Assembly (NCBI GenBank): GCA_022827165.1
Contig: JAJDTN010000135.1
Coordinates: 1 to 5,590, forward strand
Length of the DNA: 5,590 bases
Direction of reading: 5' to 3'
Origin: Candidatus Latescibacterota bacterium
Lineage (GTDB): Bacteria > Latescibacterota > UBA2968 > UBA8231
In this document: piece by piece, positions 1-1,829 of the stretch
Layout of the letters: the number at the start of each line of letters is the position of its first letter
How positions within the stretch are numbered: the first letter of the stretch is position 1
The notes under the pieces: model-generated
Database searches by the model: none
What the model was told of the DNA's origin: nothing
Seen by the model: only the letters and a program-made list of their open reading frames with translations
Program-made: the position numbers and the translations under genes

Positions 1-193
1 CCGCGGCGCGGGCGGCCTCGACGGCGGTGGTCACCGACGCCGTGTCGCCCCGGAAGCTGAGGGAAACGAACCCGCCGCCGATGCGCTCGAACCCGAGCAG
101 GCGGACATCGGCCGTCTTGGCCGCGGTATCGGCGGCTTCGACGACGCCGACCAGGCCGCGGGTCTCGATCAGTCCGATGGCCGACCCGGGCAC
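1..193 (-). CDS. Bacterial microcompartment (BMC) shell protein, hexamer-type, C-terminus cut by window edge
   Basis: Sixty-four residues are visible. After a short V-P-G-S lead they match a single BMC domain (Pfam BMC, PduA/EutM/CcmK type) almost from residue 5. Visible hallmarks are AIGLIETRGLVG (5-16), the helix EAADTAAKTADV with its conserved Lys, the beta strand VRLLGFERIGGGFV with a pore loop IGGGF, and FRGDTASV followed by the next helix. Family members are about 90-100 aa, so roughly 30 residues lie beyond the left edge. Such proteins form hexagonal tiles that build the shell of metabolic organelles; the Gly-rich pore loop lines the central pore. The GTG start at 193 gives the usual few residues before the domain, but no Shine-Dalgarno sequence precedes it. 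It follows rpsR by 15 nt in the same frame, so translation is probably coupled to rpsR. Which microcompartment it belongs to cannot be told; no encapsulated enzyme is visible here. Confidence 0.85.
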   Translation of the reverse strand, partial: MPGSAIGLIETRGLVGVVEAADTAAKTADVRLLGFERIGGGFVSLSFRGDTASVTTAVEAARAA

Positions 194-208: not shown

Positions 209-430
209 CTAACGCGTATCGTTGATGCTGTAGGGCAGCAGCCCGAGATAGCGGGCCCGCTTGATGGCGCGCACGATCCTGGTCTGCTGGGAGCGGGTGG
301 CGCCGGTACGGCGGGCCGGCTCGATCTTGCCGAAGGGAGTGAGGAAGCGGGACAGCACGTCGAGCCGCTTGTAGTCGATCTCTTCGGGCTTCAGCTTGGC
401 CGTGAACTCTTTGCGATTGACCCGGGCGAT
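209..430 (-). CDS. rpsR: 30S ribosomal protein S18, apparent ATC start codon
   Basis: The 73-residue product aligns with S18 along its whole length: (I/M)ARVNRKEF at the N-terminus, EEIDYKRLDVLSRFLTPFGKI (positions 16-36), ARRTGATRSQQTRIVRAIKRARYLGLLPY (39-67) and a short polar tail. S18 binds 16S rRNA in the platform of the small subunit, next to S6. The start is unusual. The frame is open from about 525 but has no ATG, GTG or TTG upstream of the S18 homology. The first in-frame GTG (codon 24) would delete a third of the protein. ATC at 430 lines up exactly with Met1 of Escherichia coli S18 (MARYFRRRKF) and has AGGAG nine nt upstream. The usual partners rpsF, ssb and rplI are not adjacent; the downstream gene is a BMC shell protein. 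An ATG-to-ATC base error remains possible. Identity is near certain, start well supported. Confidence 0.92.
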   Translation of the reverse strand: MARVNRKEFTAKLKPEEIDYKRLDVLSRFLTPFGKIEPARRTGATRSQQTRIVRAIKRARYLGLLPYSINDTR

Positions 431-439
431 GGCGCTTGG

Positions 440-444
440 CTCCT
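440..444 (-). promoter_or_regulatory. Shine-Dalgarno site deciding the rpsR start
   Basis: On the minus strand AGGAG is followed by nine nt and then ATC at 430. It is the only purine-rich anti-SD match just upstream of the S18 homology, and it supports initiation at the ATC rather than at an upstream CTG (487-485), which has no SD. Confidence 0.6.
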
Positions 445-494
445 GTGCGGCGTGGAGGGGCCGCCGGCGGGAGGGCCGATGCGGCAGGTGAGCT

Positions 495-1829
495 TTGGAA
501 GCTAGGGAACATGCCTCTCTCCGTCAACGATGGAGGCGGGCCTCCGGCCTCGCCCGCTGGGCCGCCTTCTGCCTGGGAATCGTCGCCCTCCTGCCCCCCG
601 CGGCAGGCTCCCGCGGACCACTGGCCGCCGGGTTGACGGCGACGGCGGTGCTCCTCGCGGCGGGGCTCCTCCGCCGCTCCCCGGAACGGCCTCCGCGCCG
701 CCTGCTGTGGCCCGCCGCCGCCTGGCTCGCCGGCCTGGGGATCAGCTTCGCCCTCGGCGGGTCCTCCGAGCCGGCCCCCCTGCTGCCGCCCCTGCTGGGG
801 ACGGCGGCCCTCTTCGTGGGCTGGCAGCTGCGGCGCGCGCCCGACGCCGCGGTCGCCATGGCCGGCATCGGCGCCGGTGCCGTGGCGGCCTCCCTGCACG
901 CCGCCGCCCAGCACGCCGGTTGGGACCCGGTCCCCCGGGCCGACTTCTTTCCCGACCGCGTGGTGGGACCCTTCGCCAACCCCAACCACCTCGCCGGCTT
1001 CCTGGCGGCGGCCCTGCCGCTGCTGCTGACCGCCGGCCTGGGCGCAGGCAGCTCCCCGGGCGGGGTCCGCTGGCGGCCGGCCCTGGGCCTGGGGCTGGCG
1101 GTCCTGCTGATCCTCGGGATCCTGCTGCTGGCGGGCAGCCGCGGGGCGCTGGCCGGCTGCCTGGCGGGGACCACCGTGGTCTTCGCCGGCTACGTCCGCG
1201 GCGCGCGGCTGGGCCGGCTCCGGGCGAGGCCCTCGGGATGGCTGCTGCTGCTGGTCGGCGCGGCGGGGGTGGCGCTGCTGCTCCGCCACGAGCCGGTCAT
1301 GAGCAACCGCCAGGGGCAGACCTCGGTCGGCCAGCGGCTGAAGGCGATGCTCAACGTGGCCGGGGATGAGGCCGACCGGGACGCCACCCTGGTGCACCGG
1401 CGGGTGCTCCGGAGCCTCGCCTGGCGCATGTTCGCCGCCGACCCCTGGCTCGGCGCCGGACCCGGGCAGTTCCGGACGGCGGGCGCCCTGGCCGACGAGG
1501 CCGAGACGCGGCTGCTGGCCTCGGTGAGGGGGGGCCTGCCCCGCCACGCCCACAACGAGCTGCTGCAGACGGCGGCCGAGTCGGGCCTGGCGGGCCTGCT
1601 GCCGCTGGTCGTCCTGCTCGCCGCGGGCGGCCTCGGCGCCCTCGGGCCCGCCTGGCGCACGGGGGATCCGGTGACCTGGGCGGCCCTCGGCGGATGCGCC
1701 GCGGTCATGGTCCACGGGCTGGTGAGCTACCCGCTGCACATGCCCGCCACGGCGGGGGCCTTCTGGGTGCTGCTCGGTGTCCTGTTCCGGCGCGGGGAGC
1801 CCCGGGGGGCGGGCGCTCGGAGCGCCTAG
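495..1829 (+). CDS. O-antigen ligase/polymerase family membrane protein (Wzy_C / WaaL-like)
   Basis: A 444-residue polytopic inner-membrane protein with roughly twelve hydrophobic segments: about residues 21-38, 42-60, 70-88, 98-112, 118-138, 163-184, 196-213, 216-233, 248-264, 363-383, 393-410 and 418-432. It has the signature order of the O-antigen ligase/polymerase family: FANPNHLAGFL (160-170), GSRGA (214-218), a large periplasmic loop of about 100 residues, then PWLGAGPGQF (317-326) and HAHNELLQTAAESGL (351-365). Family members transfer or polymerise undecaprenyl-linked glycans at the periplasmic face; whether this is a ligase (WaaL), polymerase (Wzy) or protein glycosyltransferase cannot be told from sequence alone. 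The TTG start at 495 is chosen because AGGTGA (486-491) precedes it at good spacing and because no in-frame ATG occurs before residue 122. No glycosyltransferase or flippase gene is adjacent, so it is an orphan in this window. Its stop overlaps that of the converging creatininase-family gene. Confidence 0.87.
   Translation: MEAREHASLRQRWRRASGLARWAAFCLGIVALLPPAAGSRGPLAAGLTATAVLLAAGLLRRSPERPPRRLLWPAAAWLAGLGISFALGGSSEPAPLLPPLLGTAALFVGWQLRRAPDAAVAMAGIGAGAVAASLHAAAQHAGWDPVPRADFFPDRVVGPFANPNHLAGFLAAALPLLLTAGLGAGSSPGGVRWRPALGLGLAVLLILGILLLAGSRGALAGCLAGTTVVFAGYVRGARLGRLRARPSGWLLLLVGAAGVALLLRHEPVMSNRQGQTSVGQRLKAMLNVAGDEADRDATLVHRRVLRSLAWRMFAADPWLGAGPGQFRTAGALADEAETRLLASVRGGLPRHAHNELLQTAAESGLAGLLPLVVLLAAGGLGALGPAWRTGDPVTWAALGGCAAVMVHGLVSYPLHMPATAGAFWVLLGVLFRRGEPRGAGARSA
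499..527 (-). promoter_or_regulatory. Candidate sigma-70-type promoter for rpsR-BMC
   Basis: Read on the minus strand, TTGACG (527-522, five of six to TTGACA) is followed by a 17-nt spacer and TAGCTT (504-499, three of six to TATAAT, keeping the TA...T positions). Transcription would start near 492, giving a leader of about 60 nt before rpsR. The site lies inside the first codons of the divergent membrane-protein gene. The -35 and spacing are good, the -10 is weak. Confidence 0.35.
1826..1829. other. Shared CTAG: overlapping convergent stop codons
   Basis: The palindrome CTAG holds the TAG stop of the plus-strand membrane-protein gene (1827-1829) and the TAG stop of the minus-strand hydrolase gene (1828-1826). 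There is no space for a terminator between the two genes, so each transcript must run into the other gene's 3' end. Confidence 0.9.

Follow-up and report, generated by a model that had tools for sequence, protein, structure and literature searches.

The window, the whole 5,590-nt stretch of DNA that we analysed, carries on its minus strand an rpsR gene encoding a bS18 protein of 73 residues (209..430, stop TAG at 211-209). It is followed by a gene for a BMC-domain shell protein (1..193, minus strand, start GTG at 193, PF00936 72.3 bits) that runs off the window. The rpsR frame was assigned to bS18 by both TIGR00165 (70.4 bits, cut-off 38.75) and PF01084 (68.9 bits, cut-off 21), and it reads ...CACAGGAGCCAAGCGCC-ATC-GCC-CGG-GTC-AAT... 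on the minus strand. Residue 9 of the protein corresponds to position 10 of TIGR00165, so the ATC and the start of the model are at most about one position apart. The first-pass annotation had proposed that rpsR begins with this ATC, nine nucleotides after an AGGAG, and that the S18 frame offers no ATG, GTG or TTG upstream. All three points held: the AUC start codon lies at 428..430, the Shine-Dalgarno AGGAG ends 9 nt before it (440..444), and no NTG occurs between the in-frame TGA at 526-524 and the ATC. Further upstream on the same strand, a −35-like TTGACG (522..527) and a −10-like TAGCTT (499..504) form a promoter-like site from which transcription is predicted to start near 492. The predicted 5' untranslated region (431..492) contains no in-frame NTG.

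We compared codon 1 in rpsR of close relatives, as the first-pass annotation had suggested, and found ATC in 22 of 22. The phylum to which G009 (an uncultured Latescibacteria record) belongs is represented by 64 genomes, 59 of which have an S18 match, of the window type in 22 and of an ordinary type in 37. Counting the window together with all 22 Latescibacterota genomes that have this S18 type, rpsR codon 1 is ATC in 23/23 sequences; the orthologues L001-L021 come from a DNA-level scan of genome contigs that returned 31 loci. The ordinary-type S18 has an NTG start and a Shine-Dalgarno in 37 of 37 outside genomes (scored by profile as 32 ATG and 5 GTG, with ATG preferred where more than one Shine-Dalgarno-led NTG was present). 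The records of L001, L002, L003, L006, L011-L013, L015, L016 and L018 bear Gemmatimonad names, and the genomes belong to the same phylum as G009. Ambiguous bases occur within the rpsR of G052 (L015/L053), where one TAA is reported.

Beyond the start, 35 columns with an invariant residue lie within a 64-column stretch, and a single codon is used throughout in only one of the 35. Judged from the alignment, the invariance of the start codon is suggestive, a pointer and not a proof. We dropped invariance as sole proof of AUC over AUU or AUA, as ATC makes up 109 of the 119 isoleucine codons elsewhere in rpsR, so that ATC rather than ATT or ATA is uninformative by itself.

A search of ∼5.8 billion proteins yielded 69 S18 matches. 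At the position of the window ATC, 41 of these have isoleucine, four have their annotated Met1, five start downstream and five have something else; the remaining 14 lack the anchor motif. The residues preceding the isoleucine are not conserved across the protein set, as expected if gene callers pick chance upstream NTGs. Gene-caller lengths of S18 among the relatives run from 49 to 128 residues, compared with 73 here, and a few of these proteins are partial or chimeric. Some public annotations appear to take the ATC as the start already: P0013 and P0015 have Met1 at this position and we infer that they are identical to L007 and L009, whose DNA reads ATC (P0003 and P0053 fall outside this identification). 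Across an entire branch, gene callers appear to misplace the start of this universal marker.

As controls we used 23 genes (21 ribosomal protein genes, tuf and rpoA) from the S10/spc/alpha regions, covering 20 of the 22 clade genomes. In a reference-anchored alignment of 424 control starts, an NTG stands at the reference position in 382 and no more than six codons from it in 37, 419 in total; in the other five, the reference position falls outside the open frame. When this automated test was applied to rpsR, a two-residue indel threw it out of register: 9 of the 23 sequences showed ATC in the aligned column, 12 showed other codons, and two (L003 and L005) had an NTG no more than six codons away. 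The count of 23/23 ATC codons rests on direct codon reading.

The AGGAG lies 7 to 9 nt upstream of the ATC in all 23 sequences (7 nt in seven, 8 nt in six and 9 nt in ten). A Shine-Dalgarno of at least 5 nt is found at 23/23 rpsR starts (5 nt, AGGAG) as compared to 98/419 control starts, 331 of which have one of at least 4 nt; the counts are given without a p-value because the sequences are related. The promoter-like site is equally constant. The pattern TTG[AC][CT]N followed by TAnnnT, composed after viewing the aligned upstream regions and allowing a spacer of 16-18 nt, has exactly one match within 150 nt upstream of the ATC in 23/23, always with a 17-nt spacer and always 74-105 nt upstream. 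The first hexamer is TTGACA in 16 sequences, TTGACG in three, TTGCTT in three and TTGACT in one. Across both strands of these loci, the pattern has a background frequency of 0.43 per kb, promoter matches included. Within the window, the TTGAC form with a spacer of 15-19 nt occurs once against 0.01 expected, and a generic 9-of-12 promoter scan of the window returned no promoter. The predicted mRNA start lies 39-70 nt before the ATC. We considered a conserved structure in the 5' leader and make no claim for one: a hairpin looks as if it has been kept in one subclade, but only 2 of 18 leaders folded clearly better than their shuffles (z below −2). Loci L013-L021 have a GC-rich hairpin ∼20-45 nt upstream of the rpsR ATC, just 5' of the Shine-Dalgarno, with stems that differ in sequence.

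The infC gene, which encodes IF3, starts with AUU, AUC or AUA and is autoregulated by IF3. The first-pass annotation had cited infC as the precedent for a non-NTG start, and the precedent proved firmer than claimed, as infC of this same clade has ATC at the expected start in 24/24 genomes. Twenty-two of these have a Shine-Dalgarno of at least 5 nt and 22/24 have no NTG within six codons. Clade rpsR therefore resembles infC in pairing a non-NTG start with a good Shine-Dalgarno; it differs in that its product is a 30S ribosomal protein, so that any autoregulation would be indirect. We examined 71 ortholog groups from 100 kb in four clade genomes, and in 60 of these an NTG column is common to the members. 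In the other 11, infC alone of the identified genes yielded no NTG start. For G009_595 the Met of G009 lies just beyond the searched interval, and for G009_639 a position with NTG in 17/17 members does; G009_596 is a small frame; and the other seven groups have NTGs at differing positions, one member lacking an NTG in the interval in four of them. Among the genes tested in the clade, infC and rpsR account for the AUC starts.

G009 has a tRNA-Met (CAT) with an initiator-type loop, as identified by ARAGORN. The pattern GGGCTNATAACCC, which we take to be the fMet anticodon loop, has matches in 53 of 64 genomes, most of them with CAT, and nine matches have GAT or AAT. A special AUC-reading initiator tRNA was rejected as a candidate: ARAGORN called no tRNA at six loci with GAT matches from among these nine (five in clade genomes, one outside).

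The ATC genomes form one side of a single branch. In an IF3 tree of 43 loci (43 of the 46 chosen, with G017, G018 and G020 left out, and including 18 of the 37 outside genomes), a branch with 100/100 support separates the 22 ATC genomes and three genomes without a detected S18 from 18 NTG genomes. The unrooted tree is consistent with a single switch of start codon. Gene position, N-terminal cysteine motif and start codon all differ across this branch. The rpsF and rpsR genes are adjacent in 36/37 outside genomes versus 0/20 clade genomes that have both; in the latter they are far apart on one chromosome in two genomes and on different contigs in 18. All 37 outside S18 sequences contain CxxC, while the 23 clade sequences contain no cysteine at all. 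An Rfam scan for the S6:S18 leader at 20 rpsF loci (11 clade, 9 outside) gave no match at E ≤ 0.5, the outside loci included. By PF01084, no S18 was found in G051, G056 and G058.

Taken together, the sequence comparisons make it close to certain that AUC in clade rpsR is a genuine, conserved translation start. The first-pass annotation had named a single-base error, ATG read as ATC, as the main alternative. An error of sequencing or assembly is conceivable in a single draft genome, but its probability is now negligible because the codon is ATC in every one of the 22 relatives, two chromosome-level assemblies (L019 and L020) among them. Translation might instead begin at an upstream or internal NTG, giving an N-terminus longer or shorter than thought. 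An in-frame upstream NTG of some sort exists in 12 of 23 rpsR sequences, such starts are the ones chosen by gene callers, and in two sequences an NTG lies no more than six codons from the ATC, namely a GTG at codon 4 in L003/L035 and a GTG at −9 in L005/L038. Against this, 11/23 sequences have no NTG between the upstream in-frame stop and the ATC, and in L013, L015 and L054 that stop is just five codons away. Within the predicted mRNAs an in-frame upstream NTG occurs in 6/23 and is led by a Shine-Dalgarno in 0/23, the codon-4 NTG is confined to 1/23, and the residues encoded upstream of the ATC are not conserved across the set. These sequence features largely refute an NTG start, which we regard as very improbable.

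It is hardly credible that the window-type S18 is a decaying or secondary copy whose working counterpart starts with AUG elsewhere. In two clade genomes, G011 and G060, a sigma-70-type gene is indeed followed directly by another S18, which starts with ATG (L063:2194-3350 and L064:2309-3477; the sigma-70-type gene was called by Pfam for L063 and by likeness for L064), and G004 has a partial second S18. But the AUC copy is the only S18 in 19/22 clade genomes by two profiles, PF01084 being one, and these include the two chromosome-level assemblies; G009 and G010 have no second complete S18, and the protein of the AUC copy keeps the 35 invariant residues of the 64-column stretch. A further account accepts the AUC start as real and denies it any regulatory role, holding that it was fixed once rpsR had left its operon, with the gene's own promoter compensating. 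The switch to AUC does coincide with the displacement of rpsR, and the promoter-like site is present in 23/23. However, ATG is one base change away and occurs in 0/23, although 34 of the 35 columns of other invariant residues show more than one codon, and infC retains AUC in the same genomes. We judge this account unlikely, without finding it far-fetched.

The reading we favour, with a probability of roughly 0.7, is that the AUC of rpsR is a genuine start that is throttled by IF3 and offset by the gene's own promoter and Shine-Dalgarno. Comparison among relatives shows the codon and its conservation, the Shine-Dalgarno, the promoter-like site and the absence of any usable NTG, and it shows the restriction to one branch, where rpsR is also displaced from the rpsF operon and S18 has lost the cysteine motif; the inferred steps that link these to IF3 are as follows. 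The usual initiator tRNA, with its CAU anticodon, would presumably decode the AUC as fMet. Published work reports that IF3 selects against non-NTG starts (PMC5472188, PMC4611024) and that this selection applies where a start codon has no 3' G (PMC4611024), so each rpsR mRNA would be expected to initiate weakly and in an IF3-sensitive manner. On these biochemical grounds, IF3 sensitivity of the rpsR AUC start is very likely; a regulatory role for it is plausible. The gene's own promoter and better-than-average Shine-Dalgarno may make up for the weak initiation, and the amount of S18 made would thereby depend on how active IF3 is on the 30S subunit, the control that infC applies to itself. Control through IF3 possibly substitutes for the S6:S18 leader control lost when the operon split. 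What counts against the favoured explanation is that every ribosome needs one copy of S18, so that weak initiation on its mRNA is surprising. A conserved AUC in rpsR, shared with infC, raises the possibility that IF3 start-codon discrimination governs ribosome assembly, beyond the synthesis of IF3 itself.

A feedback by S18 itself is a more speculative extension, and we consider it doubtful. In such a circuit, 30S subunits poor in S18 would be less strict and would initiate better on the rpsR AUC until S18 was restored. They might be less strict because S18 sits by the Shine-Dalgarno helix on the platform where the N-terminal domain of IF3 docks: the N-terminal region of S18 is described as contacting the Shine-Dalgarno helix (PMC4611024), and bS18 as lining the exit channel, with the IF3 N-terminal domain at the platform and in possible contact with uS11 (PMC5037330). 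Loss of S18 could equally weaken Shine-Dalgarno-led initiation instead. If true, the circuit would be a ribosomal-protein feedback with start-codon fidelity as its sensor.

To our knowledge, the bacterial genes with non-NTG starts are few and include no ribosomal one. Among the matches listed from open-licence PMC papers, we recognised none describing rpsR or another ribosomal-protein gene of bacteria as starting at a non-NTG codon. The nearest parallels come from other classes of gene. In Streptomyces, the GTC start of sigR is reported to be repressed by IF3, and like the rpsR start it is described as a conserved non-canonical start outside infC that is misannotated in genomes (PMC5472188). 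Unlike sigR, a sigma factor gene of one genus for which the IF3 effect was shown (PMC5472188), rpsR encodes a ribosomal protein, its AUC start spans a deep branch of a phylum, and the IF3 effect would be a predicted one. In S. aureus, cvfC1 (AUU) and ccpN (AUA) are reported to have conserved AUH starts with strong Shine-Dalgarnos, the same pairing as in clade rpsR, and reporters gave ∼10% of AUG activity, rising to as much as 30% for ccpN in rich medium (PMC13009471). In contrast to rpsR, cvfC1 is described as encoding a small protein of little-known function and ccpN a transcriptional repressor (PMC13009471).

Two known systems concern the small-subunit proteins more directly. The rpsU gene is reported to be autoregulated by ribosomes lacking bS21, and strong Shine-Dalgarnos are reported at rpsR in some Bacteroidia orders (PMC9976891). 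Like bS21, S18 is a platform protein near the anti-Shine-Dalgarno whose mRNA has a special initiation signal; unlike rpsU, where that signal is described as a very strong Shine-Dalgarno (PMC9976891), rpsR would use its start codon, and its Shine-Dalgarno is 5 nt. The S6:S18 leader of rpsF-rpsR operons also controls the amount of S18, as described in two reports (PMC4647458, PMC7247131), but clade rpsR differs from these operons in not being adjacent to rpsF in any of the 20 genomes that have both genes.

In 21 of 23 clade loci the next gene after rpsR is the BMC gene. We could resolve where it starts in 14 of the 23, with ATG in 12 and GTG in two (the window and L001). The distance from the rpsR stop to the BMC start is 10-29 nt in 13 loci and 145 nt in L012, and the two genes are likely to be co-transcribed. 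The first-pass annotation had proposed that an AUC start could bring both S18 and a coupled BMC gene under IF3 control; for the BMC gene, such control and translational coupling to rpsR would be conjectural. The rpsR-linked BMC gene of G009 and G010 is distant from the main BMC cluster. At G008:C105:143965-145065, and similarly in G007, G009 and G010, four BMC domains share one open frame of ∼400 residues, possibly encoding a quadruple-BMC shell protein.
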